Positions 6,792 to 28,800 of a stretch of 32,379 nt of DNA are shown here, one piece after another; position 1 is the stretch's first letter, and the number at the start of each line of letters is the position of its first letter. Under the pieces are notes generated by a model. The model was not told the DNA's origin. It made no database searches and was given only the letters and a program-made list of their open reading frames with translations. The stretch comes from Geminocystis sp. GBBB08 (lineage in GTDB: Bacteria; Cyanobacteriota; Cyanobacteriia; Cyanobacteriales; Cyanobacteriaceae), in NCBI RefSeq assembly GCF_016743215.1, contig NZ_VRZC01000026.1:1-32379 (forward strand), written 5' to 3'. Position numbers and translations under genes: made by a program.

Positions 6792-7046
6792 GGAAAAGGT
6801 GTTAGTTATCAGCTTTCAGTGGTCAGCTTTAAAGTATAGTAAGATTTACAGATTTATTTTTTAATCTTTAATTCTTCACGAATGATTTAGGATTGTTATA
6901 TTTATTTAAGTTATTTATACATGAGGAAATTTTTAGTTTTGATAAAATTTTTGAGTATGACTTTTTAACACAAATCGTTTAAGATTGCTATACTTATTTT
7001 TCACTATTTATTAATCCATAACTATTGATTATTCACTATACTAGAT

Positions 7047-8276
7047 ATGTTAAGAAAAATCCGCAGTTTGATTGATTTATTTTTTATCAAATCAAGAAAT
7101 ATTAATAATGAGCCAATAAATAAAGTAAGTTTAATCGTTATTATTATTATTGACTTATTTATTCTGGTTAACGTTTTTTCTGGTTTAGATGATATTAGTA
7201 AATGGTATTTAACTCCATCTCAAGCCTATCCTTGTTATGAGCAATGGCAAAATTATAAAGAAGATATAAGAGATAATCGAGATTTTCAAATAATAAGTAA
7301 TGCTTTAAATAAAGTCTCCAATTTACCTCAAAGTTATCAAGAGTCTTCTAGGCAATATTTAGGAAAAGTATCGCCAATTTGTCTTAATTTTACCAGTCTT
7401 GCAAATAACATCAATCAACCGAATAATAAGCTAATTTTTACCACGATAGAAGAAAAACAAAAACAAGTAACTTCCCTTGAAGAAAAAAATCGCACAATTC
7501 GTAGTCAGTATGATTCTAGCTTATTAGAAAAAATAGCAGGTCAACCTCAAAATTTATCGATAAATGAAATTGAAGCCCAAAAAGCAAAACAAGAATTAGA
7601 TAAAAATAAGGCTAATATAACTAATCTTCAAAGAGAAATTCAGGAATTAAAACAACAATTATTAGCTACAGAGCAAAGTATTGAATTTCTTTCATTTTTA
7701 AAATCAGAAGTTAAATTTAGTGAAGTTAAACAAGGATATGAAAAAGCTGTATTTTGGTATCCAAGTATTGTCATTATCTTTCAACTTTTATTTTTATTAC
7801 CTTTAATATTTATCAGTTTATTTATCCATAAATTAGCTATAGAAAAAGCCTATGGATTAATTTCCTTAATGAGTTGGCATTTATTAGTTATATTTTTTAT
7901 CCCTTTACTAATCAAAATATTTGAGTTTTTACAAGTTGGGGCAATTTTTGCTTTTCTGTTGGATATTATTACCGTTATTTTTGGTGGATTAATTTTTTTA
8001 ATCAATTATTTATATATCTTGATAATTCCCGTCATCGGTTTTGGAATCATCAAATTTTTTCAGCAAATTGTTTTTAATCCGAAAAATCAAGCCAGTAAAA
8101 GAGTTGAAAAATCTCGTTGTTTAAGTTGCGGTAAAAAAATTCATCATGATCATTTACATTGTCCCCATTGTGGTTATAATCAACATCAAGAATGTAATAA
8201 TTGCCATAATTTAACCTATAAATTAATGCCCTATTGCCTTCACTGTGGTACACCTCAAAACACAGATCTTCTTTAG
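7047..8276 (+). CDS. Unknown membrane protein with coiled coil and double zinc ribbon
   Basis: I do not recognise this 409-residue protein. Its order is: short cytoplasmic N-terminus; one membrane helix (about 27-46); a ~180-residue soluble region with a coiled coil at about 137-215 rich in E, K and Q; a hydrophobic block of roughly four helices (about 232-345); and a Cys-rich tail. The tail has eight cysteines in four CxxC pairs (358/361, 372/375, 383/386, 397/400), giving two zinc-ribbon-like units. If the tail is cytoplasmic, the coiled coil could lie on either side depending on helix number. Asn, Lys and Ile usage matches the neighbours, so no sign of transfer. The gene stands alone with 255 bp upstream. 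A membrane scaffold or a zinc-dependent tether is possible; this is inference only. Confidence 0.75.
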   Translation: MLRKIRSLIDLFFIKSRNINNEPINKVSLIVIIIIDLFILVNVFSGLDDISKWYLTPSQAYPCYEQWQNYKEDIRDNRDFQIISNALNKVSNLPQSYQESSRQYLGKVSPICLNFTSLANNINQPNNKLIFTTIEEKQKQVTSLEEKNRTIRSQYDSSLLEKIAGQPQNLSINEIEAQKAKQELDKNKANITNLQREIQELKQQLLATEQSIEFLSFLKSEVKFSEVKQGYEKAVFWYPSIVIIFQLLFLLPLIFISLFIHKLAIEKAYGLISLMSWHLLVIFFIPLLIKIFEFLQVGAIFAFLLDIITVIFGGLIFLINYLYILIIPVIGFGIIKFFQQIVFNPKNQASKRVEKSRCLSCGKKIHHDHLHCPHCGYNQHQECNNCHNLTYKLMPYCLHCGTPQNTDLL

Positions 8277-8402
8277 AGTTTTTGCAAAATTCAGTAGGGC
8301 GATGGATACCTCACAATTTTGAGGATGATTTACTTATTTTAAAAATACTGTAATAAATACGAGTACAAAATAAAAACTAAAATCTATTTAAGGTGAGAAA
8401 TT

Positions 8403-8453
8403 ATGAATTTTAATAACCATTACCTTGTGCATCGTTGCCTGACTTTAGCTTGA
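8403..8453 (+). CDS. Possible 16-residue leader peptide upstream of raf1
   Basis: A mini-ORF of 16 residues (MNFNNHYLVHRCLTLA) starts at an ATG preceded by a strong Shine-Dalgarno-like AAGGTGAG six bases upstream. The raf1 gene itself has no such site. It lies upstream of the putative raf1 -10 box at 8501, so it would be on the raf1 messenger only if an earlier promoter is used. There is no codon evidence at this length; it may be chance. Confidence 0.2.
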   Translation: MNFNNHYLVHRCLTLA

Positions 8454-8500
8454 TGTCTAATGAATTTTTTAATGAGGTCAACTTGAAGAGGATAAAGTAG

Positions 8501-8506
8501 TATAAT
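8501..8506 (+). promoter_or_regulatory. Putative -10 box (TATAAT) for raf1
   Basis: A perfect TATAAT 43 bp before the raf1 start codon. No matching -35 hexamer is found at 16-18 bp; TTGAAG lies only 12 bp upstream. The 5' leader would be about 35 nt. Confidence 0.4.
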
Positions 8507-8548
8507 GACTTTAGATTCATTAATATCAATCTCAATTATAATCAAACG

Positions 8549-9634
8549 ATGACAGAAAATAAGACCAATAATAATCCTTTAACCTCAGAAGAAAAAGAAA
8601 ATATTATAACATCTTTGTTACATAAAGAAGGATGTTGGGTAGATTGGGGAAAAGCCTGTCAAATATTGCAACAAGGTGGAGTTAACAGTCAAGAAATTTT
8701 TGAAGGCACAGGATTACAAACCAGTCAACAAAATTTGGTCATCGTTGCCTCTCAAGTATATGATAGTTTAATCAAGGGTGACGCAGAAGAAGATTTACTA
8801 AATTATTATCGTGGTCCTCGAAGTGATGTATTATATGAATTGAGAATTTTAAATCATCAAGAAAGACTTTCTGCCGCTATTTTAGCAAAAGAAAAACAAT
8901 TAGACGTAGATGGTGCCAAAGAAATTGCCAAAGCCATCAAACATTTTTCTCATCTTTCCCAACCACCCACTGGTTTCACCCTTCATTCGGGAGATGCTGT
9001 TGCTTATCAATATTGGAAAAATGCTCGTCAGAAAAAGACTTTAGCCGATAAAGCACGTTTGATTGCCGAAGGCTTAAAATTTGCTCATTCTTCTACTGCC
9101 AGACAACAAATTGAGCAATTATTAACAGAAGCTGCTACGGCAACATCTACCTCGAAAAAAAATGCGCCTTTATTACCCATATATCGCTTAGAAACAGAAG
9201 AACAATTACCCTGTATTTTACCAGTAGTGGGAACATTTCCTTTAACGGCTAAAGATTTGGAAAATGTGCCAATTTTTGAAAGTATAGAGCCTTTTGGTCA
9301 AATTAATATTAAGCAAAATACTCAAATTGTTTCTATTCCCCATTGGCAAGTAATTTTAACAGCAAAACATCCTGCGGTTATTTTTTGTCGTAGTGAAGAT
9401 TTGCCGAAACAAACTAGCACTAAATCTGAGGAATTATTAGTTGTAGTTGACTTAAGTATTAAAGATTGGAATAGTAATAATTATTGGCTAATAGAAGAAG
9501 ATCAAAAACTAAAATTTAACTGGTTTGAATCTGCCCCTAACTATAACATTTTAGGTCAATTATTAATAATTGTAAAACCGAAAAAAATTCTTGATGAAGA
9601 TAATTTAGCTCAACCTTGGCAAATGGATGACTAA
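8549..9634 (+). CDS. raf1: Rubisco accumulation factor 1 (Raf1), Rubisco assembly chaperone
   Basis: A 361-residue protein matching cyanobacterial Raf1, a dimeric chaperone that holds folded RbcL subunits and assembles the L8 core before RbcS binds. The N-terminal alpha-helical domain (about 10-190) contains the HKEGCWVDWGKACQILQQGG and NYYRGPRSDVLYELRILNH blocks, and the helical RLIAEGLKFAHSS follows. A flexible linker around 195-205 (TSTSKKN) leads to the beta-sheet dimerisation domain (about 205-350), starting PLLPIYRLETEEQLPCILPV. The length is normal. No Shine-Dalgarno site precedes the ATG, common in cyanobacteria; a TATAAT lies 43 bp upstream. It stands alone with 279 bp downstream. 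The call rests on overall resemblance and is strong. Confidence 0.9.
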   Translation: MTENKTNNNPLTSEEKENIITSLLHKEGCWVDWGKACQILQQGGVNSQEIFEGTGLQTSQQNLVIVASQVYDSLIKGDAEEDLLNYYRGPRSDVLYELRILNHQERLSAAILAKEKQLDVDGAKEIAKAIKHFSHLSQPPTGFTLHSGDAVAYQYWKNARQKKTLADKARLIAEGLKFAHSSTARQQIEQLLTEAATATSTSKKNAPLLPIYRLETEEQLPCILPVVGTFPLTAKDLENVPIFESIEPFGQINIKQNTQIVSIPHWQVILTAKHPAVIFCRSEDLPKQTSTKSEELLVVVDLSIKDWNSNNYWLIEEDQKLKFNWFESAPNYNILGQLLIIVKPKKILDEDNLAQPWQMDD

Positions 9635-12216: not shown

Positions 12217-13441
12217 TCCTATATTACCATTTAAAGATAAAAATATTTTAATTTGTGTTGGGGGAGGTATCGCCGCTTATAAGGTGTGTGAAGTCGTCTC
12301 CCAATTATTTCAGCAAGGGGCAAATATTGAAGTTATTCTGACTAAATCTGCTGAAAAATTTATTACACCTTTAACTTTATCTACTTTAGCCCGAAAACCT
12401 GCTTATACAGATCAAGATTTTTGGCAACCAATTCATTCTCCCCCTCTACATATTCAACTAGGAGAATGGGCAGATTTAATCCTTATCGCACCTTTAACTG
12501 CTAATACTTTAGCTAAATTGGTTCATGGTTTAGCAGATAATCTTCTCACTAATACGATTTTAGCTTCTTTATGTCCTGTTATTGTTGCGCCAGCTATGAA
12601 TACGGAAATGTGGTTACAAAAATCAGTACAAGATAATTGGCAAGAGTTACGCTTACATAATCGTTATCATCTCTTACATACTAATACCGGTTTACTTGCT
12701 TGCGATCGCATAGGGAAAGGTAGAATGGTAGAGGCAAAGGAAATTCTAACAGCCATAGAATCTATTATCTATAGTGAAGGAAAACGAGATTTAACAGGAA
12801 AAAAAATCTTAATAAGCGGAGGAAATACGAGAGAATATCTTGATCCAGTACGCTTTATTGGTAATCCGGCTACGGGTAAAATGGGAATAGCCTTAGCCAA
12901 CGCCGGTTATTATCGAGGAGCGATGGTTACTCTGGTTGCAGGTAATATTAACCCTGAATTATTAAAATTATTACCCCCCATTCAGATAATTACTGTCACT
13001 ACAGCCCAAGAAATGGAAACCGCCATCAGAAGTAATTTTCCCCTAGCAGATATAATTTTTATGGCCGCCGCAGTGGCAGACGTAAAACCTAGTCAATATT
13101 CCCCTAGTAAATTAACTAAGCAATCTTTACCAAAAACTCTAGAATTAGAGCAAGTTAACGATATAGTGGCAAAATTAGGAGAAATTAAGCAACCATCCCA
13201 AAAATTAATCGGATTTGCCGCCCAAACTGGTGATATTATTACCCCTGCCAAGGAAAAATTACTACGCAAAAAATTAGATGCGATCGTAGCGAATCCTCTT
13301 GACAAAGATAACGCCGGTTTTGCAACTGATACCAATGAAGCCGTCTTCATCACTGCAAAAGGCAAAGAAATAATTATCAAACCTTGCACAAAATTATTCT
13401 TAGGAAATCAAATTCTTACACTTTGCCTTTCATGGGGTTGA
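12203..13441 (+). CDS. coaBC: Bifunctional phosphopantothenoylcysteine decarboxylase / phosphopantothenate-cysteine ligase
   Basis: A 412-residue CoaBC carrying out two steps from 4'-phosphopantothenate to phosphopantetheine in coenzyme A synthesis. CoaC half: flavoprotein head [13 protein letters not shown], the active-site His in [11 protein letters not shown], the substrate motif PAMNTEMW, and the redox Cys in [11 protein letters not shown]. CoaB half: [20 protein letters not shown] with [18 protein letters not shown], then a Lys-rich loop. I chose ATG 12203, 36 bp inside the longest frame, because TTGAGG precedes it and it starts just before the conserved flavin fold; it overlaps the DUF2555 stop by 14 nt. 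The final residues (about TLCLSWG) do not look like a normal CoaBC tail and lie in the end of a transposon relic, so the native terminus was probably replaced. Activity is likely kept. Confidence 0.9.
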
Positions 13442-13632
13442 CAACTCCCCGCCTTTTACGGCTAGGATTCTTCCTTCACTGAGTGATGCCTTGTAAAAGC
13501 AGTACCTTTACTCGGTCTTACTCTCTCTCCAGAAGGGATTGCGATGTGTCCCACCGCTTTTAAAATACGCAAACCTTCATCTCTGATAATAAAAATAGGC
13601 AGGTTATTAATCGCTAAAATTTTGGATAAATT
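13435..13632 (-). pseudogene. 3' relic of a second tnpB-type element (IS200/IS605 group)
   Basis: Minus-strand codons up to the stop at 13464-13462 read RDEGLRILKAVGHIAIPSGE then RVRPSKGTAFTRHHSVKEES-stop, with no internal stop back to the TAG of the neighbouring transporter. This matches the C-terminal end of cyanobacterial TnpB proteins of the IS200/IS605 group as I remember them. Beyond the stop, the strand continues GCCGTAAAAGGCGGGGAGTT, which resembles the structured right end/guide-RNA scaffold of such elements. All upstream tnpB domains are missing, so it is dead. The relic meets coaBC at about 13435. Confidence 0.65.
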
Positions 13633-14595
13633 CTAAATTCCTCGGGCAATGGATTGAACACCTCGCTCATCATTCATTTTACTAAACCATGATTGATCTT
13701 GAGTAAAAATAATATCAATTGTCATATTCGGATATTTTTGCATAATTGTCTCACTTAAGTGCGATCGCATTTTATCTATTTCCGTTAAGGTTATCTCACT
13801 CTCGGAAACAGGTAATAACCAATAAAAATGTAGATAAAGAGACTGTCCGACTTCTGTCATCCTTATTGCATATCTTTCCCAAGGAAGATTACTAATCGCT
13901 TCTTTAATTAAGCCTTTAACAGTATTTTGAATTTCCACAGAAGCAGAGCCTAACATCAACTGTTTAAGACTATCACCAATAATCATCACTGGAATGGGAA
14001 AAGCAATTAAGACTAAAATAGTTACAATAGTCGGATCAGCATAAGGTACAAGATTACTAAATGGAGTTTGTTTTAAAAAAGTAGCGATGGAAAAAGAAAC
14101 TCCCACAGCAACCGAAATCATCCCATTAATAAACCAATTTTTAACATGTACGGTAACAATGGGAGAATTTGTTTTTTGGGCTAAAATTTTCTGAATAAAA
14201 GCCACAATTAAACAAACAATGGATGCAACAATGGCATAAAGTACCGCTATACCTGTATTAGCTGGTCTTCCGCCATGAAATAAAGCACCAATAGCAGAAG
14301 TAAAAGCAAAAAGAGAAACTCCAAATACCAATAAACCTTTACAAAGATTTAGTAATGGCACAAATCCTGCATAGCCAAAATTGAATAATTTATTTTCCGA
14401 TTTACTGATTAGCCATGTAATCCATAAAGAAGCCCCAGCCATTAAAAAATTCACCAAATTGAAAAAACCATCAAGCATAACCGCATCGGATTGAATCCAA
14501 ATACCAAAACTAATGCCAAAAATAGACATACAAAAAGTTGTACCAATAGAAATATAAATTGATCTTTGTTCAAGAAGACGATAATTATTATTCAT
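13633..14595 (-). CDS. Cation diffusion facilitator-like membrane transporter
   Basis: A 320-residue protein with about six membrane helices in the first ~210 residues and a soluble C-terminal domain (about 215-320), as in CDF metal/proton antiporters. Helix 2 reads SDAVMLDGFFNLVNF, where D42 matches the first metal Asp and N46 takes the place of the second. Helix 5 reads HVKNWFINGMIS, with H150 and N153 where canonical members have a His and an Asp. The C-terminal domain resembles the CDF cytoplasmic ferredoxin-like fold. The Asp-to-Asn changes suggest altered metal choice or lost zinc transport. It is divergent from the EthD cluster across 470 bp. Family call is good; substrate unknown. Confidence 0.75.
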   Translation of the reverse strand: MNNNYRLLEQRSIYISIGTTFCMSIFGISFGIWIQSDAVMLDGFFNLVNFLMAGASLWITWLISKSENKLFNFGYAGFVPLLNLCKGLLVFGVSLFAFTSAIGALFHGGRPANTGIAVLYAIVASIVCLIVAFIQKILAQKTNSPIVTVHVKNWFINGMISVAVGVSFSIATFLKQTPFSNLVPYADPTIVTILVLIAFPIPVMIIGDSLKQLMLGSASVEIQNTVKGLIKEAISNLPWERYAIRMTEVGQSLYLHFYWLLPVSESEITLTEIDKMRSHLSETIMQKYPNMTIDIIFTQDQSWFSKMNDERGVQSIARGI

Positions 14596-15065: not shown

Positions 15066-16592
15066 ATGTTTTCAACTATCAATCAATTAACTGAAACAGA
15101 TTACTCTACCAGAGATCAACAAGGACAAGTTGCTTTTTATGTCCTACTGTGGAAACGAGAGGGTATATCTTTAGAATTGTTCGATGAATATTGGAAAGAT
15201 GTTCATGGACCAGTTTGTGCTAGATTACCCGGACAGTATCAGTATTGGCAATTCCATGTCGCCCATAATGAAGGTGGTTTTTGTCCGCAAATTGAAGGTT
15301 TAGACTATCATCGAGTTGCCGAAGATAACTTTGACGGTATCGCCGAGTTAACTTTTAAGAGTGAAAATGATCGGAATATTTGGTTTACCGCCGCTGGTAT
15401 TCTTATGGATGATGAACATAATTTATTCAAGAAGGCGATCGGCTATACTACGAGTCAAGGTAATTCCATTACTTATATTGATCGCATTGCCAATGGCACT
15501 CCTAACGGAGAAACGGGAATTATCAAATTTCATGTAATGGTGAAAAAAAGCCCTCATATTAGTCGAGACGCATTTCGTAATTATTTTCGAGATACCTTTG
15601 CCCCAGCTATAATCAAAAGTCCTTCCCTATTAAAATTTCGGTTACATCTATTTGATGACATTGATAACTCTCGTCCTGATGCTGCGGGGGTTATTCATTC
15701 AGAAACTCCAGGAAAAGAATATGATGCTGCTTACGAAATTGCTTTTATTAATCATCTGGAAAGGGAAAAATTCTTTGCTTCCGTTGAATATAATCAAGCC
15801 ATAAAAAACGCCTCCCAATATATTCACAAAATTTCTCCTTTCCCAGAAAGAACCGCCTATACCTTTGTTTACGAAGGAACAATGACTCTAGCTGGGCAAC
15901 GAAGTTCATCGGTAGCGGAATTAATTACCGAAATTGGTGCGGTAAATCAAATCAAACCCGATATTACCGAATTAATGTTACATCAAAAATTAGAAAATCA
16001 AAGTACCACCAACTCTAATAAATCAATGAAAAAAAGAACCAATTACTATCAAGGATTATCGGCTGATTATTCTCGTCCGGGTTTAGTAAGCTCTTATGTT
16101 GCAAAAAAACTCATTGAGGATGCTGAAAGGATTGTCGCAATGAAAGAGTCAGTATTACCAGCTATTGCACCTAACTACACATTAGCACAAATTGAACAAG
16201 AAAATAAAGATTGGTGGCCCACTCATTGTGAAGCCTTAAGACAGGGTAGAGGTGACATTTTAACAGGGGAATATCGTGATGATTTGATTTATCTTTGTCA
16301 AGATGGTCCTTACTTTGGTTTAAACGAGCAAAGAGAAAGAGAAAAACATTGGTGGGCGTTGATTGCACAACCCGGAGTTACCATGTGTTGGCCCATTGTC
16401 ATGTTTTCAGGAGAACACACTTATTTTGAATGGAAGTGCGTTGACGATGAAACCAATGAAACCTTAGCTAAGGGTAACGTTACATGGGTAAGAAGAGGAC
16501 ATCGAGGTGCTTGTTATCTCAAAACTGAACAATTAACTTTCTATCGTGATGTATTTGCACCTAGCGAGTTAATTAGTTTAATTACTACTTAA
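15066..16592 (+). CDS. Tandem EthD-domain protein with C-terminal SnoaL-like domain
   Basis: A 508-residue soluble protein. Residues about 17-135 form an EthD-type dimeric alpha/beta-barrel unit (VAFYVLLWKREG, YWKDVHGPVCARLPG with the conserved HGP). Residues about 155-280 form a second, diverged copy (GIIKFHVMVKKSP, FAPAIIKSPSLLKFRLHLFD). A linker of about 60 residues leads to a C-terminal unit (about 345-500; WWPTHCEALRQGRGD, EREKHWWALIAQPGV) that looks NTF2/SnoaL-like. EthD folds serve in ether degradation and polyketide cyclisation; no fixed reaction is implied. The first ~300 residues closely match the start of the gene at 17049, so the two arose by duplication. AAGGATG gives a good ribosome site. 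It probably leads a three-gene operon. No signal peptide; function unknown. Confidence 0.75.
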   Translation: MFSTINQLTETDYSTRDQQGQVAFYVLLWKREGISLELFDEYWKDVHGPVCARLPGQYQYWQFHVAHNEGGFCPQIEGLDYHRVAEDNFDGIAELTFKSENDRNIWFTAAGILMDDEHNLFKKAIGYTTSQGNSITYIDRIANGTPNGETGIIKFHVMVKKSPHISRDAFRNYFRDTFAPAIIKSPSLLKFRLHLFDDIDNSRPDAAGVIHSETPGKEYDAAYEIAFINHLEREKFFASVEYNQAIKNASQYIHKISPFPERTAYTFVYEGTMTLAGQRSSSVAELITEIGAVNQIKPDITELMLHQKLENQSTTNSNKSMKKRTNYYQGLSADYSRPGLVSSYVAKKLIEDAERIVAMKESVLPAIAPNYTLAQIEQENKDWWPTHCEALRQGRGDILTGEYRDDLIYLCQDGPYFGLNEQREREKHWWALIAQPGVTMCWPIVMFSGEHTYFEWKCVDDETNETLAKGNVTWVRRGHRGACYLKTEQLTFYRDVFAPSELISLITT

Positions 16593-16614
16593 ATTTGACT
16601 AATTTGGTAACAAA

Positions 16615-16634
16615 CAAGGGGTTTAAACTCCTTG
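16615..16634. repeat. 20-nt dispersed palindrome, copy 3
   Basis: CAAGGGGTTTAAACTCCTTG, within the operon space between the EthD-SnoaL and CMD genes. Confidence 0.75.
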
Positions 16635-16653
16635 CTGAATGCCGAATGCCTAA

Positions 16654-16674
16654 CTAATTCCTAATTCCTAATTA
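16654..16674. repeat. CTAATTC heptamer triplet before the CMD start codon
   Basis: Units CTAATTC, CTAATTC, CTAATTA, the reverse complement of the family at 11586, ending three bases before the ATG at 16678 and occupying the ribosome-binding position. Confidence 0.85.
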
Positions 16675-16677
16675 AAA

Positions 16678-17037
16678 ATGACAGATACACCTTATTACAA
16701 AAATGCAGTTCTTGATGACTTGGAATTGCAAGAAGCATTAAAAAGTCTTAATCCTCAATTCGGTGATTTTGTCACTAGAGTGGCAGGAGAGGCATGGGGA
16801 TTACCCTTAATTGATCAAAAAACGAAGGCTTTAATTACCATTGCTCTTGATGTTGCTAATCAAAGTCAAAATGGTCCGGGTAGTCCCTTTGGAGCTCATG
16901 TGGTTATGGCAATTAAACAAGGTGCAACCAGAGAGGAAATTGAAGAATTACTAGTATTTCTTTGTCCTTATACTGGTTTTAATAAAGTTGCCGGTTGCTT
17001 TGGTGCTTTAAACAATTTTTTTTCTCAATCCCCTTAG
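16678..17037 (+). CDS. Carboxymuconolactone decarboxylase-family (AhpD-like fold) protein
   Basis: A 119-residue all-helical protein of the carboxymuconolactone decarboxylase family. It has GEAWGLPLIDQKTKALITIA, the helix-turn containing GAHVVMAIKQGATREEIEEL, and LCPYTGFNKVAGCFGAL. The redox CxxC pair of AhpD peroxidases is absent, so it is closer to the decarboxylase/lyase-like branch. In cyanobacterial or fungal clusters this fold often serves as an isomerase, decarboxylase or dehydratase. It starts 85 bp after the EthD-SnoaL gene and ends 11 bp before the fusion gene, implying an operon. Directly before its ATG lies a CTAATTC heptamer array (16654-16674) where a ribosome site would be, so initiation is unusual. 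Confidence 0.85.
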   Translation: MTDTPYYKNAVLDDLELQEALKSLNPQFGDFVTRVAGEAWGLPLIDQKTKALITIALDVANQSQNGPGSPFGAHVVMAIKQGATREEIEELLVFLCPYTGFNKVAGCFGALNNFFSQSP

Positions 17038-17048
17038 AGGATAAATCT

Positions 17049-20000
17049 ATGACTTTAACGATTACTCAAACCAATTACGCAGAAAGAGATGTAGAAGGTA
17101 AAGTTGCTTTTTATGTTCTTCTCTGGAAACGGGAAGGAATCCCCCTTGATTTATTCGATAACTACTGGAAGGATGTTCACGGACCAGTATGTGCCAGATT
17201 ACCGGGACAATATCAGTATTGGCAGTTTCATGTTGCCCATAGTGAAAATGGTTTATTTCCTGAAATTAATGGGGTAAATTCTAATTTTGACCTTCAAGAT
17301 AATTTCAATGGTATTGCTGAATTAACCTTTAAAAATGAGAGCGATCGCAATACTTGGTTTACGGCGGCAGGAATTTTGATGGATGATGAACGAAATTTAT
17401 TTAAAAAAGCCATCGGTTATACCACCAGTGTTGGAAATTCCATTACCTATGTGGATGGTATCCCTGATGGTAAACCTAACGGAGTTGTTGGGGCTGTTAA
17501 ATATCATATATTAGTAAAAAAACAACCCAATGTTACCGTAGAGAATTTCCGTAATTATTTACGCAATACTTTCGCCCCCGCCCTTAGTCAATCTTCATCA
17601 ATTCTAAAATTCCGTTTACATTTGTTTGATGCCATTGATAATTCTCGCCCTGATGCTCCCGGTGTTATCCATTCTGAAGCTCAAGGAAAGGAATATGATG
17701 CCGCCTTTGAAATTGCCTTTGCTAATCAATTAGAGCGAGAAAAATTCTTTGCTTCTACCGAATATCAACAAGCAATTCAACAAGCCCCTCAATATTTACA
17801 ATTGTTACGTCCTTTTCCTGAACGGACTGCTTATACTTTTGTTTATGAAGGTAAAATGACTTTAGCAGGGGAAAGAAGCGCCAAAGTATCGGAATTAATC
17901 GCCAGTATTGGTGCAACTAATCAACTACAACCAGACATTACTAATCTTATGTTAAGCGGTACTTATCAAAACGGTCAAGCCGTAGTCAATAATAACGGTA
18001 ATGGTACTCATAACGGTAACGGAAAAGTGCCTTTAGAAGTTATCACCCAAGCGCCCCAAAGAACGGTTGCTCAACATTTACAAGGAGTTCAACATTTTGG
18101 GATTACCGTTAATAATCTCGATGTCGCCCTCGAATTTTATCTTGAAGTTTTAGGAGGTAAATTAGCCATCGGCGGTGATGGTTTTATCGGTGATGAATTA
18201 CATAATCTTCTCTTTCAAAAAGAGGAAATAGAGGCGAAGGAAAAAGGTATTGATTTAAAATCTCTTGGAGTACCAAGTATTCGAGATGGTAATAAAGAAG
18301 CCTTAGACGTGCGTTTTATCTCCTTTGGTAATACTTGCGTAGAGTTAATTCACTTCCGTAATGCTCATCTTGATGCTCATGCCCCGAACGTGTTTGAGGC
18401 GATTCCTTCTGGTATTGGTCATGTTAACGCCCCTCATATCTCCTTTTTCGTTAAAGATGATGTGGATTTGAATGAATTTGCGAGAATGTTAGAAGAAGAA
18501 TGTCATCGCCGAGGCATGACTAATGTCATTGCTAATCGTACTATTGAATTAACTTCGGAACAAGCAAGGGCAAAAGCACCTCATATCTATGCTAAAACGG
18601 AATTCCCTGGAGATTTTGACGGTTGGGCATTATTCTACTGTAAAGGACCTAACGGCGAACAGTTAGAATTTAACCAAGTCAGACGCACAGCCAAAGCTAA
18701 TTTTCTCCGAGCCCAAAAAGAATATAACCTCGCTAATGATAACCACTATTGGGGTTTAAATGGTAAAGGATTAAGTTCTGCTAATCAAGAATTAAGTGCC
18801 TATTATAGTATCCCTGTTAATGCTAGTTCTGAATTAGTGTGGACAATTCTCTTAGATAAGATAGAGAATCCGGGCAATTATATGCCTTCTCCTGTGGAAT
18901 ATACCAAAACCTTAGAAAAATATAGTGACGGTATGTTGAGGGAAGTTAAAACCTCTCAAATGCTCGTCAGAGAAAGAATTACCATTGATGAAGCGAACTT
19001 GAAAATTACCTACGATATTCTCAATTATCCAATGTTTCAACCTCGTTTTATCAATCAGGTAGTGCAACCTAATGAGCCGGGTAAGAATTTATTACCTCAG
19101 CTTATTAATATTTTTCAATTAACACCTTTAGTGGAAGGGGCACTAGATACTCCTGAAGCTCAATTGTTTATTCATGCCGCTAATCCCGAATTTATCGAGA
19201 AGGCAACTTTACACATTAAAAACATCATTGAAAAACAAAACCCAGTAAATGCTATGACACAAGCTACTATCACAAGTCCAACGACGGCTACCAATGAAGG
19301 TCCTTTATGTCAAATTGTTCGTCAAATGTTCCTCGCCGGGGAATCCATGAATGTCCAAAACTTCGTTAAATTTTACACTGAAGATGCTCATTATCAATTT
19401 AGTAATTTTCCTGTAGCCTATGGTCCTCAAGGCATTATTGACTCATCCCAAGGATTTTTACAAACGGTAGCCAAAGTTTATCACCATATTATGAAAATGT
19501 GGGAATTTGGTAACACCGTAATCTGTGAAATGGAAGTTACTTATATCCGTCATGACGGTAAAGTTTTCCGTTTACCTTGTTGTGACACCATCGTTTTTAA
19601 AGGAGATAAAGTCCAAGAATTACGCATTTTTATGGACATTATGCCCGTATTCAATACCCCTCAAGTTGGTTCTGAAGAAAGTGACGAAAAAGTTTTGCCC
19701 CAAGGAACGATTAGTGGAATTTTAGGCAAAATGTATGAGGCTTTACACGCTAGTAATTGGGAATTATTTAAAACCTTCTTTACCGATGATGTTTTATATA
19801 AAATTGGTGCAAATGATCCTGTCATCGGTCCAGAGGCGATCGCCGGTTTATTACAACATATCTATAAAACCCTGAAACTTACCACTCATAACCAACGAGG
19901 ATTCTGGGAAGTCGGTAATACCATCATCTTAGAAATGGATGCTAACTATGTTAACAAAAAAGATAAAACCTTTGTGCAAGTTCCTTGTACGGATATTTAC

Positions 20001-20072
20001 CGTTTCGATGGCGAGAAAATTTACGAATGGCGTGTTTATCCTGATGCTTCTAAAACAGGAGTAGTACTTTAA
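17049..20072 (+). CDS. Five-fold fusion: EthD-EthD-VOC-SRPBCC-SnoaL-SnoaL protein
   Basis: A 1007-residue fusion; I do not know a described homologue with this order. Residues about 14-135 and 145-270 are two EthD units nearly matching the protein at 15066. An Asn/Gly linker (about 310-330) follows. Residues about 345-550 form a glyoxalase/VOC domain with plausible metal ligands: His in QHFGITV, Glu in CVELIHF, His in PHISFFV, Glu in EQLEFNQ. Residues about 584-730 resemble an SRPBCC domain of the DUF1857/AtaL kind (AYYSIPVNASSELVW). Two SnoaL-like domains end it (about 753-872 and 888-1004). I chose ATG 17049, preceded by AGAGGA, over an earlier in-frame ATG inside the CMD gene. Every module is a fold used to hold or rearrange small, often aromatic, molecules. 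The substrate is unknown. Confidence 0.75.
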   Translation: MTLTITQTNYAERDVEGKVAFYVLLWKREGIPLDLFDNYWKDVHGPVCARLPGQYQYWQFHVAHSENGLFPEINGVNSNFDLQDNFNGIAELTFKNESDRNTWFTAAGILMDDERNLFKKAIGYTTSVGNSITYVDGIPDGKPNGVVGAVKYHILVKKQPNVTVENFRNYLRNTFAPALSQSSSILKFRLHLFDAIDNSRPDAPGVIHSEAQGKEYDAAFEIAFANQLEREKFFASTEYQQAIQQAPQYLQLLRPFPERTAYTFVYEGKMTLAGERSAKVSELIASIGATNQLQPDITNLMLSGTYQNGQAVVNNNGNGTHNGNGKVPLEVITQAPQRTVAQHLQGVQHFGITVNNLDVALEFYLEVLGGKLAIGGDGFIGDELHNLLFQKEEIEAKEKGIDLKSLGVPSIRDGNKEALDVRFISFGNTCVELIHFRNAHLDAHAPNVFEAIPSGIGHVNAPHISFFVKDDVDLNEFARMLEEECHRRGMTNVIANRTIELTSEQARAKAPHIYAKTEFPGDFDGWALFYCKGPNGEQLEFNQVRRTAKANFLRAQKEYNLANDNHYWGLNGKGLSSANQELSAYYSIPVNASSELVWTILLDKIENPGNYMPSPVEYTKTLEKYSDGMLREVKTSQMLVRERITIDEANLKITYDILNYPMFQPRFINQVVQPNEPGKNLLPQLINIFQLTPLVEGALDTPEAQLFIHAANPEFIEKATLHIKNIIEKQNPVNAMTQATITSPTTATNEGPLCQIVRQMFLAGESMNVQNFVKFYTEDAHYQFSNFPVAYGPQGIIDSSQGFLQTVAKVYHHIMKMWEFGNTVICEMEVTYIRHDGKVFRLPCCDTIVFKGDKVQELRIFMDIMPVFNTPQVGSEESDEKVLPQGTISGILGKMYEALHASNWELFKTFFTDDVLYKIGANDPVIGPEAIAGLLQHIYKTLKLTTHNQRGFWEVGNTIILEMDANYVNKKDKTFVQVPCTDIYRFDGEKIYEWRVYPDASKTGVVL

Positions 20073-20441: not shown

Positions 20442-21401
20442 ATGTCACAAAAGCCTATTAATAAAATTTTTCAGGGAGACTGTCGGGAAATCATGAAAAA
20501 CTTACCAGACAATTATATATCTGCTTGTATAACAGATCCACCTTACAATTATGAATTTATTGGGCATAAATGGGATAACTCAGAAATTCAACGCAGAATG
20601 GAAAGAATAAAAGATAAAAATAATAAGACTTTAGTTAAGAATATTCCCTATGGCAGTGGTTTAGCAGGAGGAGTAAGAAATGAGCGATGGTATCAAAAAA
20701 ATAGAGAAAATATTTTAGAATATCAAAATTGGTGTTTTGAGTGGGGAAAAGAGCTTTTTCATATTTGTAAACCCGGTGCAAATATTTTAGTTTTTAATAG
20801 TACTAGAACTGTTGCTCATGTCCAAATAGCCTTAGAAAATGCTGGTTTTTATGCTAGAGATATAATAGTTTATCGTCGATCGAGTGGTATTCCTAAAGGT
20901 ATTAATATTGAAAAAAAATTGAGTCAAGAAAACTATCCTAATCCAGAAAAATGGCATGGTTGGCATAGTTGTTTACGCAATGAATGGGAAGCTATTTGTG
21001 TTTTGCAAAAACCATTAAAAAATAATTATTATGATACTTTAACAGAGTATGAAACTGGGTTATTTTATACTCACACTTTAGGAGGTGGTTTTCAATCAAA
21101 TATATTAGAAAATATACCTAAAGAAAAAACAGAAGATTTTAATATTCATTGTACAGTTAAGCCTCTTAATTTAATGGAAAAATTAGTCAAAATTTTTGTC
21201 CCCAGAACTGAAAATAGTATTTTAATTGATCCTTTTGCCGGTTCCGGTACAACATTATTAGCGGCAAAAAATTATGATATTTCTTATATTGGTATTGAGA
21301 TAGTTCCCGAATATATTGAGATAATCAATAAAAGACTTAATCAAGAAAATTTTAACGGACAACAGCAAATTTTGCCTTTATACTCATCAGAAATTGCTTA
21401 A
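20442..21401 (+). CDS. Type II DNA methyltransferase (N6-adenine or N4-cytosine, beta-class order)
   Basis: A 319-residue S-adenosylmethionine-dependent DNA amino-methyltransferase. The catalytic motif IV DPPY is at 32-35, and the SAM-binding motif I DPFAGSGTTLL is near 263-273, the motif IV-before-I order of beta-class enzymes. The middle ~230 residues hold the target-recognition part. DPPY does not distinguish adenine from N4-cytosine modification. Its 3' end overlaps the converging nuclease gene by 50 bp, and a controller gene lies beyond, so it should protect the host in a type II system. A consensus promoter with an operator-like palindrome precedes it. No Shine-Dalgarno site. Low GC like the surroundings. 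The recognised sequence cannot be read from the protein. Confidence 0.9.
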   Translation: MSQKPINKIFQGDCREIMKNLPDNYISACITDPPYNYEFIGHKWDNSEIQRRMERIKDKNNKTLVKNIPYGSGLAGGVRNERWYQKNRENILEYQNWCFEWGKELFHICKPGANILVFNSTRTVAHVQIALENAGFYARDIIVYRRSSGIPKGINIEKKLSQENYPNPEKWHGWHSCLRNEWEAICVLQKPLKNNYYDTLTEYETGLFYTHTLGGGFQSNILENIPKEKTEDFNIHCTVKPLNLMEKLVKIFVPRTENSILIDPFAGSGTTLLAAKNYDISYIGIEIVPEYIEIINKRLNQENFNGQQQILPLYSSEIA

Positions 21402-21906
21402 GATCAAAACCGCTTATTTTTTGAATAAATTTAAAAGTATCATCTCCAGTATAAACATTCCAATTTCCTGTTTGACAAGCAGTTATTGCGGCAGGTAAAT
21501 TGTCGCCTCTTAAAATTAAAATTACCGGAATATATCCTAAATTTTTTAATTTCTTTCCGTCTTGTTTAAATCCTTTTAATGTTTTTGAATCTCCAGAGCC
21601 AATCCTGTATTTAGTATCAATAGCATAAGAATTAACTACTAAATCACACGGTTCATCATTAGCTATTCTCAGAGCAGGTTGAAAATTTTGACAATGTATT
21701 TTACATATTTCTACCACTAATTTTTGCCAATAAGTACCTAATTCTCGACTCCAATATTGCCTATTTTCAGCTTTTAATTCAGCAGTTAAATTAAATACAT
21801 CCATTAATAAATCATGTTCGGAATTGCCATTATTAAAAACTTTTTCTTCAAAGGATTTTTGATATTCTTCTAAAATACTTTCTAGGTTTTGATTAATATT
21901 AGTCAT
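21352..21906 (-). CDS. Putative type II restriction endonuclease (PD-(D/E)XK-like)
   Basis: A 184-residue protein, assigned by position and a nuclease-like core. D88 in DEPCDLVVNSYAIDTKYR and the D97-x-K99 pair (DTK) have the spacing of a PD-(D/E)XK metal site; E68 in KLVVEICK could be the supporting acid. Its ATG overlaps the controller gene's stop by 8 nt (ATGACTAA), so C and R are translationally coupled, as in controller-type R-M systems. Its last 50 bp are shared, antiparallel, with the methyltransferase 3' end. I do not recognise a named family, so the cut site is unknown. The frame is intact and of normal length for a small type II enzyme. Confidence 0.75.
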   Translation of the reverse strand: MTNINQNLESILEEYQKSFEEKVFNNGNSEHDLLMDVFNLTAELKAENRQYWSRELGTYWQKLVVEICKIHCQNFQPALRIANDEPCDLVVNSYAIDTKYRIGSGDSKTLKGFKQDGKKLKNLGYIPVILILRGDNLPAAITACQTGNWNVYTGDDTFKFIQKISGFDLKQFLMSIKAKFAVVR

Positions 21907-22860: not shown

Positions 22861-25800
22861 ATGCTTAATGAACTTTTACCCCCCATCGTTGCTTCTGCAT
22901 TAGATCTCGTTAGTCAAAAGTTATTATCTTTCACCACCGATACTCAATTCAACGAAAAATTAATTTTAACTTTCGGTAACGCTATTAACACCGAATCTTA
23001 TCTACAGTTATGGACAAATGGTGAATATAATATTGAGCCAGTCATCGAAATTGTCAGTCGCAGTCAGTTACAAGGTGCTAACGGTGCTTTTTCCAAAGAT
23101 AACGGGAAAATTTATCTAGCAGAAGAATATTTAGCCACAAACATTAATAATCTTGAGTCGATCGCAAGTGTGATATTGGAAGAATATGGGCATTACTTAG
23201 ACTTTATCATCAATGGCGATAATGATAGTCCCGGAGATGAAGGAGAAATTTTTTCCGCCTTAGTGCGAGGTATCAATCTCAGTGCTGAAAATTTACAGCA
23301 ATTACAGACTCAAAACGACTTTTCCACGATTTTCATTGATGGGCAATATTTGCCCGTAGAAAATTCTAAACCGTTTATTTCCCTATATATGCACCGGGGA
23401 TATTCTTCATTTGTCGAAGAAGATACTCCAGACTACTCATTTGGGGCTGAAAATCTATACTTCATTTTTGATAGAGACGATGCCACTGTCAATACTCCTG
23501 TGAGTGTTAACTTTACTGTGGGAGGAACAGCATCATACGGTTACTCAGGTAATGGTGATTATAATCTTTTAAATATATACAACAATGGTGCAAGCGTGTT
23601 ATTTGGTTCTACCGGCGGAACGATATACTTTCCTGCGGGTGTGAAAACTGTTACGGTAGGATTTGATCTTATAGCCGACTCGATGATTGAGGAGCATGAA
23701 ACTATTATCCTCAGTCTTCTGCCCAACGACAATTATAACGTTTATAGCACAAACCCTGTCGTAGGAACGATCCTTAATGACGATAATCCCCCGGGTTTTA
23801 CTCTAACCAAAGTTCCTTCACTTTTAAATAACTTCCCCTTGAGGGTTCAAGAAGGCGGATTAACAGATGCTTATACAATAGTTTTAGACAGTCCCCCCAC
23901 TGCCAATGTTACCTTGACTATCAACGGAGGAACACAATTAAATACCAGCACCAACACTGTAACTTTCACTCGTAGCAACTGGTATAAACCTCAAACAATT
24001 ACGGTATCTGCCATTAATGACGGTATTGCCGAAGGCGCCCATCAAGGCACTATCACTACTACAGTTACAACAACTGATCTCAATTATAGAGCAATTACCA
24101 TTGATCCACTGGTGGTAATGATCGATGTCAATATTTCCCCCATTGCCATCACCCTAACCAATCAACAAACCTCATTCCCCGAAAATACCAATACAGCAAG
24201 TCCAATTAAAGTAGCGGATATTAACATTACTGATGATGGGTTAGGAATCAATGCCCTAAGAGTTGTCGGGAGCGATGCCAATTTCTTTGAAATTAAAAAT
24301 AACGCTTTATATCTTAAAGCCAATACCAATCTGGATTATGGACTTAAGCGCAGTTACAATGTTTCCGTTGAGGTAGATGATCCCACCGTAGGAAGTAACC
24401 CCGATTTAACAGCTAGTTTTACCCTAAATGTTACCGATGTGCCAGAAGGTAACTTAAATACAACTGAAGTTAGAAATATCTATGACAGTGGAGAGGGTAG
24501 TTTACGTCAGGCAATTCTCTTTGCCAATGCCAACCCGGGGGCAGATACCATTACCTTTGTTGGTTCTGTTTTTACTGATAACACTCCTGATACCATTTAT
24601 CTGTTATCGATGTTGCCTATCATCACCGATGATCTTACCATTATCGGTACAGGAATAGACAAACTCACTATTAGTGGCGATGCCAACAAAAATGGTATCA
24701 ACGATGCAGGGGATTCCCGTATTTTCTTTGTCAATCAAGGCAATATTTCTATCTCAAATCTTACCCTAGCTGAAGGACGAGCCAAAGGAGGAGATGGTGC
24801 TGACGGTGGTGGCGGTGGTGCTGGTATGGGAGGTGCATTGTTCATCAATGGGTTATACAATGGTGCATCTGTCACAACGAATGTCACCCTTACCAATGTG
24901 AATTTTACTAAAAATCAGGCGATCGGCGGTAGAGGTGGCACGATACTTTATGACGAAAGTTTTGAAGACCTAGGAGGTGGAGGCGGCGGAGGTGGCTTCT
25001 CTGGTAATGGAGGCAAGATTGAATTTGATGAGTATTATCGTACTCAGGGCTATTTTAGATTTTTTGGCGAAGGGGGAGGTGGCGGAGGTGGCTTCTCTGG
25101 TGATGGTGGGATAGGTAGTTACAAAGGTGGCGGAGGTGGCGGAGGCTACTCTGGTGATGGTGGAAACAGCGTTGATATACAGTTGGGTGTGGTTAACATT
25201 GGTGATGGTGGTGTTGGTGGCTCAGGCACTGGGACTCCCTTTGGTGGTTCTCCTGCTACCGCAGGGGGTGGGTTCGTCACTGCGCCCGGAAGCGGAGGTG
25301 GTGTCGGCGGAGGTAGCGGTGGTGCTTACCTTTGTAGTATTGACGGTTCTGCTTCCTCCGGTGGCACTGGCAGTATCGGTGGCGGTGGCGGTGGTGGTAG
25401 TAATAGTGATAATGAGAAAGTTGGTTCTAATGGTGGTCGTGGAGGCGATTTTGGCGGAGGCGGTGGTGCCGGTGCCGGTGACAACTTCTCTGGTACTGGC
25501 GGTAGTGGTGGCTTTGCCGGTGGCGGAGGCGGAGGCGGTAGTAGTGGCGGAGGCGGTGCTGGTGGCTTCGGCGGAGGCGGAGGTGGTACCCGAGGTGGTA
25601 GCTTCGGCGGTGCTGGTGGCTTCGGCGGTGGAACTGGTGTAGGCGGTACTTTCGGCAGTGGCAGTAGCTTCTCTTTCCCTTATTCCTTCGGTGGTGGTGG
25701 TGCTGGACTGGGAGGGGCTATCTTTGTTAGAACGGGCAACCTAAACCTTAACAACGTCAATTTTTCTAACAATAACGCCATCGGTGGTGCAAGTGATGGA

Positions 25801-28800
25801 AATCAAGGGCAAGGTATTGGTGGTGCTATTTTTGCCGTTGGCACAACTTTAGGCTCTCAAGCAGGTATTTCTACACCAGCGACAGTAACTTACAATAATA
25901 TTAGTTTTGATAATAATACAAGCAGTACCAGTAGTCCGAATACATACGGTCTTTTCTTTGCTACTAATGACACTACTAATGCCAGAGAGGCTGGAAACTT
26001 TAATAATAATAAATTTGGGATCAATCCTACGGGCAACGTTCTTGCTAATGATACCGATACCAATAACAGCTATGGTGATCTAAGAGTAATCTCTGTTAGA
26101 ACGGGAGAAATAGCAGGACAGGGTACGCAGAAAACTTTGGGAACTCCGATCATTGGTAATTATGGCACTTTCACTCTTAACAGTAATGGTTCTTATAGTT
26201 ATGTTGTCGATAATAACAATCCTGATGTACAAGCCTTAAACATAGGAGATACTCTTACAGAGAGTTTTAACTACACCGTTGAGAATGTTCCTGATGGGCG
26301 AACTGATATGGCAAAATTTGTCATAACGATCGATGGAGTCAATGATAAACCGATATTATCGTCGATCGCACCTATTGCTTTCAGCGAAACGAGTGCCTAT
26401 GACACTTTCAATCCCATTTCTGGTACTTTACTGGGAGTTGATCCTGATGGTGGGTTAACACAACTTACTTATGGTATTGCAGGGAAAACGGCATCTGGTG
26501 GCATGACTACCGTTAATGGAGCTTACGGGGTTTTGAACATCAATACTTCAACGGGAGATTATACTTATACCCCTAATGCTTCGGCAATTAATGCTCTTCA
26601 AAAAGATGCGATCGATTATTTCAACTTCACCGTTTCTGATGGAGATTTAAGTAAGGATTTTTCCAGCGATCTTTTGCTGTCAGAGAATTTTGAAATTTCT
26701 AGTTTCTTTTTTATTACAGATAGATATAATCCCAATTACAAACTATCTTCAGGAAGACAAAGTGGCCCTCTCGCTCTAACTAATTGGAGTAATTCAGGGG
26801 AGACTTATTCTGCAGGTGGTTATGTCACTGTTGGGAATGGGACAACAGCACTCGATCGCAACTTTAATAATGATATTTCCGAAGGGAATCTTCAAATTAG
26901 TTTTGATCTATCACCATTAATCAACAGTGAATTTGGTACTAGCTCTAGCGATTGGGGAGGTATTAGTCTAGGACTTTCTGCAACTGACAAAAACGCATTT
27001 ATTAATTCTGCCGTACCAAACTTTGGGATTCCCTTCAGAAAAAACGGTCAAATGCAGGTTTTCTATGGTAATAAGGACATAACGGCATTATTTCCCAATA
27101 GCACTTGGGGCATTCAGGGAGGTAATTTCAGTTTCTCTAACTTCACTCTGCAATTAAGTGATCCCACCGATGATAATCCTTTTAATGGCATTGGACAAAC
27201 TAATATTGATGTTTATGCAAATAATAATCTGATCTATCAGTACGTTAAGGGAGATGGTGGCTATAGCGACAACTATATTAACTTTGCTAGTAGTAGTCGT
27301 ACTGGATCGGGACTAGACAACGTAGTTATAAGCAAACCAAACACTATCATCACTAGACAAAATAGTCAACCCTTCATCGTTAATTTGCAGGGAGCTAATG
27401 ACTATCCCACAAACTTGTCCTTAAATTCAAGTGCAGTTAATGAAAACGTTGCGACCTTGGCTACTGTGGAAACGTTTAACACTGTTGATCCTGATAATAA
27501 TACCCTCTTTACTTATAGCCTAGTAGAAGGAGTTGGCTCAAACGATAACAGTTATTTTACTATTAGTGGCAATCAACTAAAGATTAATAGTTCTCCAAAC
27601 TTTGAAAGTAAATCTAGCTACCGTATTCGAGTCAAAACTACTGATCAAGGGGGTTTATCTTTTGAAAAAGAATTAACTATTACGATTAATGATCTTAATG
27701 AAACTCCTACAAACCTAGATATTAGTGTTAGTAACGTTGATGAAAATGTACTGGCAAATACGGTTGTTGGTAGTTTTACCACTGTAGATGAGGATGCAAA
27801 TAACACTTTTAGCTATAGCCTCGTAACAGGTACAGGATCAGATGACAATAATGCTTTTAGTATTATCAACGGCAATCAATTACAAATAAAAAATTCTCCT
27901 AACTTTGAAAGCAAATCTAGCTATAAAATTCGGGTTAAAACTACTGATCAAAATGGGTTATTTTATGAAAAAGTTCTGACGATTACCATTAATGATGTTA
28001 ATGAAGCACCGACAAATTTAGTTCTAAATCCTCTTACCGTTAATGAAAATGTACCAAATAGCACAGTAGTTGGTAGTTTTACTACTATAGATGAGGATGC
28101 AAATAATTCTTTTAACTATAGTCTGGTAAGCGGTACAGGTTCAGAGGATAATAGTGCTTTTACTATTAATGGTAATCAATTACAAATTAGTAATTCGCCA
28201 GATTTTGAATTGAAGTCTAGTTATAAGATTCGAGTTAAAACTAAAGATCAAGATGGATTGAGCTATGAGAAAGAATTAATTATTAGTATCAATAACCTAA
28301 ATGAGACTCCCACAGATTTAACTCTGAATGTCAGTAATATTGATGAAAATATTTCGGCAAATACTGTTATTGGCAACTTTGGCACGATCGATCAAGATAA
28401 TAACAATACTTTCACTTATCAAATTGTTAGCGATGATAGTGATGCAGAAATTCTATTTTCTGACAATTTTACTGCTCCTAGCAACCCCAATACCTACAAT
28501 ATAAACTATAATCTCAACCAAAGACAGGGGGGAACTTTTGCCGAAACTAATTGGGTAGGTAATGGCAATACTCAAGTAGGCAATGATACAGCTGGGATTG
28601 ACTTCGGAAATTATCTAATTACTGCGTTTAGCGGTACGGCGGCGATCGATCGCAACTTTAATAATGCTAATTCTCAGGGAGGACTTAGAATCGCCTTTAA
28701 TCTTGCCCCTAACTCAACAGGCAACGGAGATCAAAATGTTTGGGGAGGCATTAATCTAGGACTTTCAGCCACTGACAAAAATGCTAGTATCGATTCCGGT

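Follow-up and report, generated by a model that had tools for sequence, protein, structure and literature searches.

In the sections of the literature that treat the icfG locus of Synechocystis sp. PCC 6803, the genes slr1852 to slr1862 are given as one operon that includes the Slr1855 epimerase, Slr1856, GlgX1, and IcfG (PMC8670252), and the icfG cluster itself as slr1856, slr1857, slr1859, icfG (slr1860), and slr1861, the last encoding a kinase that is an anti-SigC factor (PMC12329169). In these same sections the locus is studied for its partner switch, and its first genes appear as hypothetical (slr1852, the divergent neighbor of the likewise hypothetical sll1783; PMC5341163), as a carboxymuconolactone decarboxylase (CMD; slr1853), and as an unknown protein (slr1854; PMC3564720). 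Knockdown of cyabrB1 induces the divergent icfG and sll1783 operons, according to the title of a 2024 study cited in PMC11368403 and PMC13421787. Here, we describe a cluster of three genes from Geminocystis sp. GBBB08 whose relatives sit in loci of this type. The window analyzed is a stretch of 32,379 nt (assembly GCF_016743215.1, contig NZ_VRZC01000026.1, positions 1–32,379 of the forward strand).

The first gene of the cluster (gene 1, 15066–16592, +; 508 aa from an ATG) encodes two EthD domains and a C-terminal domain of 178 aa, here named G1C (16056–16589, +), which has no Pfam model. Gene 2 (16678–17037, +; 119 aa, ATG start) encodes a CMD, and gene 3 (17049–20072, +; 1007 aa from its ATG) an EthD-EthD-VOC-SRPBCC-SnoaL-SnoaL fusion. 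The initial annotation, made from the sequence alone, saw in these genes a candidate for an undescribed system that would modify one small, perhaps aromatic or quinone-like, molecule. The three adjacent same-strand open reading frames (ORFs) were confirmed, as were, by Pfam, the CMD and most folds of the fusion. The system is not without partners, since relatives of the cluster sit in an icfG-type locus with GlgX, an AGE-type epimerase, STAS proteins, a SpoIIE phosphatase, and a HATPase kinase. We lean, with modest conviction, toward reading the cluster as an enlarged form of the gene pair that opens such a locus (slr1852–slr1853 in Synechocystis), now detached from the rest, which would act on a small, perhaps sugar-derived, metabolite.

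A scan with the fusion, with one genome taken per species, yielded 31 loci, all titled as cyanobacteria and many cut by contig ends. EthD was present in 30 of them, CMD in 26, G1C in 24, PfpI in 19, the AGE epimerase in 15, and GlgX and STAS in 14 each. The EthD-G1C fusion was found in 11 loci and the EthD-to-VOC fusion in 10. The supposition that the genes stay together holds in part. G1C occurred in 26 of 388 cyanobacterial genomes (a sample of the same class), the window genome counted. For each of the 25 other genomes, we compared about 11–20 kb surrounding a single G1C site, counting neighbors at E ≤ 1e-5. DJ-1/PfpI was present in 22 loci, CMD in 20, the AGE-type epimerase in 18, GlgX and STAS in 16 each, the anti-sigma-type kinase, the IcfG-type phosphatase, and EthD in 10 each, VOC and SnoaL in 6 each, and a multicopper oxidase in 5; one locus (L070) had none of these partners.

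The loci L078–L080 show the order G1C-CMD-PfpI-AGE-STAS-GlgX-STAS-SpoIIE phosphatase-HATPase kinase, plus a divergent operon; in L079 an ABM gene opens this operon, which also includes a xylose-isomerase-like TIM barrel, an alpha/beta hydrolase, and a polysaccharide deacetylase. Relatives of four genes of the divergent operon were found in 5 to 8 of the 59 loci compared. With Slr1854 presumed to be DJ-1/PfpI-like, the gene order of L078–L080 is that of the slr1852–slr1861 icfG operon of Synechocystis, as far as the published excerpts describe it. The window contains the pair that opens these operons, in the form of EthD-G1C followed by CMD. Judged by gene order and divergence, G1C most likely represents the Slr1852 family, and the CMD of the window most likely the Slr1853 family; a linkage of the cluster to the icfG-type gene set is highly probable.

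The AGE-type epimerase (E ≤ 1e-50) was present in 47 of the 388 genomes, and all 26 genomes with G1C are among these 47. A strong EthD pair occurred in 13 genomes, and in 12 of these G1C is also present, no more than about 13.5 kb away from the EthD match (G357 is the exception). The threshold for a strong pair (E ≤ 1e-60) was chosen once the table had been inspected, and it leaves out six genomes with weaker matches (G036, G294, G063, G158, G192, and G290); with them, G1C is present in 13 of 19. The hypergeometric values for these co-occurrences, 5.8e-28 and 5.9e-15, assume that the genomes are independent of one another, which makes them too strong. As a control, the 16 other ORFs of the window were searched in the 59 loci: 13 were found in none, two in one locus each, and a CDF-like gene in two. 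Because CMD, which was not a query, was present in 48 of these loci while 13 of the 16 control ORFs were in none, the three-gene cluster is real and conserved, and not a product of chance.

EthD and G1C are fused in 15 of the 59 loci, and EthD and VOC in 13. Fused modules occur in the window and, among others, in Mojavia, Mastigocoleus, and Nostoc 106C. Calothrix NIES-22, Tolypothrix FACHB-123, and one Dendronalium locus instead encode these modules in individual genes that lie next to each other. This alternation between fusion and neighborhood supports a shared task. EthD, VOC, SRPBCC, and SnoaL are optional modules that some lineages have gained, either fused or as individual genes. G1C is plasmid-borne in five records, which include Nostoc NIES-3756, Gloeothece PCC 7822, and Gloeocapsopsis dulcis. 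The Nostoc NIES-3756 plasmid also carries genes annotated as aldose 1-epimerase and glucose 1-dehydrogenase, with relatives in L074 and L075.

The fusion itself was not described in the open-licence full texts searched. Some further proteins were seen beside its relatives. A long multicopper oxidase lies near the cluster in 12 of the 31 fusion-scan loci, and the copy at 1–4582 of L005 has FG-GAP repeats. L073 encodes a neighbor of 502 aa (12622–14130) that carries a Nif11 domain at its N terminus together with SnoaL domains and an ABM domain scoring at the cut-off, and in L083, from a genus mate of the window genome, a cupin plus double-ABM protein of 1155 aa (5840–9307) adjoins G1C-CMD.

We read the cluster in terms of carbohydrate because GlgX and the AGE epimerase recur beside it and because of the aldose 1-epimerase and glucose 1-dehydrogenase annotations; a sugar-derived substrate, argued from gene company only, is a tentative proposal. 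The cluster would supply the icfG-type carbon-control locus with a domain-stacked set of accessory enzymes. Its modules would be small enzymes that use no organic cofactor and act in succession, tethered by fusion, on one small reactive metabolite, possibly a sugar-derived carbonyl or enol from glycogen debranching and sugar epimerization. Such successive steps on tethered modules, proposed in the initial annotation, are plausible. CMD and G1C would carry out the core step, and EthD, VOC, SRPBCC, and SnoaL would extend the pathway in lineages that need a further product. The system would be switched or fed by the icfG-type set, and the partner switch would decide when the modules act. A broader version, in which icfG-type loci carry an undescribed, lineage-swapped enzyme line that has G1C at its core, comprises CMD, an EthD pair, VOC, SRPBCC, and SnoaL repeats, turns a glycogen-derived sugar into a small product, is fused in some lineages to form one or two proteins, and moves between chromosome and plasmid, seems to us somewhat doubtful. 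A series of small-molecule enzyme folds is fused to the first icfG genes and is swapped with them. Beyond its role in regulation, the locus may therefore produce or remove a particular metabolite, and this poses a concrete substrate question in a genetically tractable organism.

Several observations weigh against a detached icfG-type front end that acts on sugar. None of the contiguous PfpI, AGE epimerase, STAS, GlgX, STAS, phosphatase, and kinase genes is found in the window, and because the switch and glycogen genes are not contiguous, we do not class the cluster as an icfG operon. G1C is assigned to the Slr1852 family by gene order and divergence. The phosphatase, kinase, and STAS families are large, and some of the neighbors counted may be unrelated in function. 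Five of the 24 G1C loci of the fusion scan (L011, L018, L020, L026, and L031, some of them short contigs) have no icfG-type gene besides CMD, and in L066 PfpI, AGE, and GlgX are on the other strand. OprB-type porins occur in 14 of the 59 loci, the query locus counted; they count little for sugar transport because the Gloeothece copy bears the annotation of an iron uptake porin. Lastly, the catalytic set of limonene epoxide hydrolase is Arg-Asp-Asp, and in a profile alignment its Arg and second Asp have no counterpart in the SnoaL domains of the fusion, so that the SnoaL chemistry is not readable from sequence; other residues of these domains are invariant.

The folds of EthD, SnoaL, SRPBCC, VOC, and CMD serve the tailoring of aromatic compounds and quinones elsewhere. 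The cluster could thus tailor an aromatic or quinone natural product, with EthD as a decarboxylase, SnoaL and SRPBCC as cyclases, and VOC and CMD acting on the ring. A Crinalium plasmid that has a type I polyketide synthase gene carries a distant, AtaL-like relative of the SRPBCC part (38%), and the Gloeothece PCC 7822 copy lies less than 10 kb from ThDP, KAS III, HpaB, and halogenase genes. The model of the fusion also matches the ARO/CYC protein BexL and polyether epoxide hydrolases, with low TM-scores for the tandem. However, no polyketide synthase family was found among the 19 non-overlapping window ORFs of at least 70 aa; the polyketide link is solely the distant Crinalium homologue. The window CMD scores far under the curated cut-off for PcaC (TIGR02425; 34.7 of 155.7 bits), and the recurring partners are glycogen, epimerase, and partner-switch genes, with aldose 1-epimerase in some loci. 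The aromatic or quinone-like substrate is not favored by these partners, and we consider it decidedly improbable.

The double VOC module of gene 3 (18078–18686, +) is recognized by Pfam over residues 347–484 (Glyoxalase, 30 bits; cut-off 20.6), and its right limit was drawn from conservation. Residues H349, E432, H463, and E540 are kept in 22, 22, 21, and 22 of 22 copies, respectively. We take these four His/Glu positions to be the ligand pattern of glyoxalase I, and the VOC part is probably metal-dependent. In the PDB, only FosB chains match this part by sequence. The kept residues, together with the DJ-1/PfpI gene in 22 of the 25 G1C loci, would suit the detoxification of a reactive, methylglyoxal-like carbonyl from sugar turnover, in which VOC would act as glyoxalase I and DJ-1/PfpI as glyoxalase III or deglycase. 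This would leave EthD, CMD, and two or more SnoaL domains unexplained; moreover, VOC is present in just 6 of the 25 G1C loci, and DJ-1/PfpI is not adjacent in the window genome. Detoxification therefore appears unlikely.

The SRPBCC domain (18792–19259, +) is AtaL-like and below the Pfam cut-off, its 19.5 bits not reaching the gathering score of 27 for AtaL (PF08982). Across residues 581–730 the model has a mean pLDDT of 63–90 per ten-residue block, and Foldseek matches of this part include PYL and ARO/CYC chains; an SRPBCC-type fold for this region is supported by the prediction. The domain string first given for the fusion thus stands by Pfam for EthD, VOC, and SnoaL, and by model and Foldseek for SRPBCC. 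PYR/PYL receptors among the fold matches, and the linkage to STAS, phosphatase, and kinase genes, would also agree with modules that are not enzymes and are instead ligand-binding sensors, whose NTF2, SRPBCC, and VOC pockets would feed the partner switch. Yet the two phosphatases examined have candidate inputs of their own (GAF in L005; HAMP and a sub-threshold Cache in L079), and the VOC ligand positions and an HGP motif of EthD are kept, as for enzymes, which makes sensors very improbable.

The tandem SnoaL domains A (19299–19658, +) and B (19707–20048, +) are called by Pfam, the model, and Foldseek, with 83.2 bits for SnoaL_2 (PF12680; cut-off 27) and 35.3 bits for SnoaL (PF07366; cut-off 28.4). 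The EthD and VOC regions of the fusion are poorly modeled. The two EthD domains of gene 3 (17133–17402, from Pfam and alignments, and 17526–17780, from Pfam; both +) reach 59.3 bits together (PF07110; cut-off 22), and the HGP at residues 44–46 of the first is invariant in the alignments. Of the 15 genomes that have both copies in the EthD tree, six show them as sisters (the window, at 99/99, L005, L007, L010, L012, and L013) and the other nine do not. This rules out a general homogenization of EthD and suggests one in some genomes only. A 32% relative of the EthD pair outside the cyanobacteria lies on a Roseomonas plasmid (L095, 8977–9897), between MFS transporter and regulator genes. A padloc scan of both fusion genes gave no match.

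In gene 1, EthD is the sole Pfam family (54.3 bits; gathering cut-off 22, PF07110), and both domains are over the cut-off (15156–15422, 35.6 bits; 15552–15806, 25.5 bits; both +). The EthD-EthD part of the initial annotation thus stood; the SnoaL label that it gave to G1C is possible only. The window G1C has no Pfam family at E ≤ 10, the best SnoaL match among 51 members is a single SnoaL_2 at E 0.087, and hhalign of G1C against the gene set's own SnoaL domains gives a probability of 0.3%, which speaks against a plain member of these. The structure model is poor (pLDDT 46); the 50 matches shown are NTF2/SnoaL-like chains, and the VIA Z is at most 5.4, a level that the tool calls common. G1C possibly has an NTF2/SnoaL-like fold on this model. 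Stray Pfam matches among the 51 members (Metallophos in three, best E 0.089; C-glycoside deglycosidase beta in one, E 0.13) were taken as chance, and the single sequence match to a solved structure, a T-cell receptor chain at E 1.1, was rejected. G1C is the most conserved part of the set, with 59–90% identity in 50 other sequences, and in the 388-genome scan it is a stand-alone short ORF in 23 of 27 matches.

Gene 2 matches the CMD superfamily (PF02627) at 45.3 bits (cut-off 23). It is one frame apart from gene 3 at a run of eight T by its stop (17016–17023, +), where one more T would join both in frame, and CMD is fused to EthD in 13 loci. A frameshifted fusion of CMD and gene 3 was considered and is not favored by the position of the window CMD in the CMD tree (112 columns, weak support). 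In this weakly supported tree, it does not belong to the main clade, which comprises seven fused copies, and the rows closest to it by path are copies that stand alone or in tandem. One fused copy (L010) shares a loose four-row group (80/87) with it, which tempers the separate-gene reading. We favor a CMD that is a gene of its own. A Shine-Dalgarno-like AGAGGA was found by eye (17036–17041, +) 7 bases 5' of the ATG of gene 3, and an alternative TTG start at 16995 would give 1025 aa.

In the window genome, PfpI (84–85%), AGE (66%), and STAS (53%) are on a contig of 3656 bases, and another contig carries a phosphatase-like domain (49%) and a kinase-like gene (43%). A single CMD of this kind was found in the genome. 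In two genus mates (G314 and G341), G1C-CMD is likewise apart from PfpI-AGE-STAS, so an assembly break as the cause of the missing partners is disfavored and a natural split is favored. The window G1C has 78% identity to those of two genus mates, against 83–90% to 15 copies from 14 EthD-G1C fusion loci; some unfused copies (L018, L026, L074, and L075) also have 83–86%. No G1C was found in the 17–20 kb around coaBC in G314, G341, and G149. The higher identity to copies from fusion loci fits a lateral gain; old paralogues with loss may be the explanation instead.

A CDF-like membrane protein of 320 aa, called by Pfam (13633–14595, −), is divergent from gene 1 and lies upstream in the window, where a divergent sll1783-type operon was not found. 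Two of the 59 loci, from Dolichospermum (L009) and Mastigocoleus (L007), have relatives (52–55%) upstream of the cluster, and the gene is a possible extra part of the cluster. It had no match in five genomes of the family, in a search without a positive control. The protein and its two relatives have Asn in transmembrane segments 2 and 5, at positions that we take to be normally the Asp metal ligands of CDF proteins, and it may not be a normal metal exporter.

Directly after the cluster, a type II DNA methyltransferase (20442–21401, +) and a convergent small gene (21352–21906, −) that weakly matches a type II restriction enzyme (E 1.4e-6) form a probable restriction-modification pair. An ORF open at the window end (22861–32379, +; 3173 aa so far) has cadherin and Ig-like domains and two 303-base repeat arrays, and would encode a large surface or secreted protein. 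Within it, at G-rich short repeats in 25001–26000, the GC content rises to 0.53, from about 0.33–0.43 around. At the contig end (1–1634, −), an OrfB_IS605/TnpB-type gene adjoins a gene with a resolvase N-terminal domain; together they probably make up an insertion element of the resolvase-plus-TnpB type. No tRNA was found in the window.

Compared with described systems, the two window proteins each carry a tandem pair of the EthD family (PF07110) over the cut-off, and differ from that family in being fused to other folds. The VOC part shares with glyoxalase I and FosB, of the VOC superfamily, a double module and the four kept His/Glu positions, and differs in being embedded in a fusion; its alphaproteobacterial relatives (about 42%) adjoin, in both annotated records examined, a gene annotated as putative quinol monooxygenase, while two further records carry no annotation. 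The SnoaL domains resemble limonene epoxide hydrolase in having a SnoaL-type fold (TMt 0.7–0.87 as single domains), and the tandem matches the polyether epoxide hydrolases MonBI, MonBII, and Lsd19 (TMt about 0.4). As in the slr1852–slr1862 operon, a G1C-like gene comes first and CMD second. The window block differs from that operon in that it stands alone, has G1C fused to a tandem EthD, and adds a six-domain fusion. What is new is thus the fused form that the front end takes here, in a type of locus that is already known.

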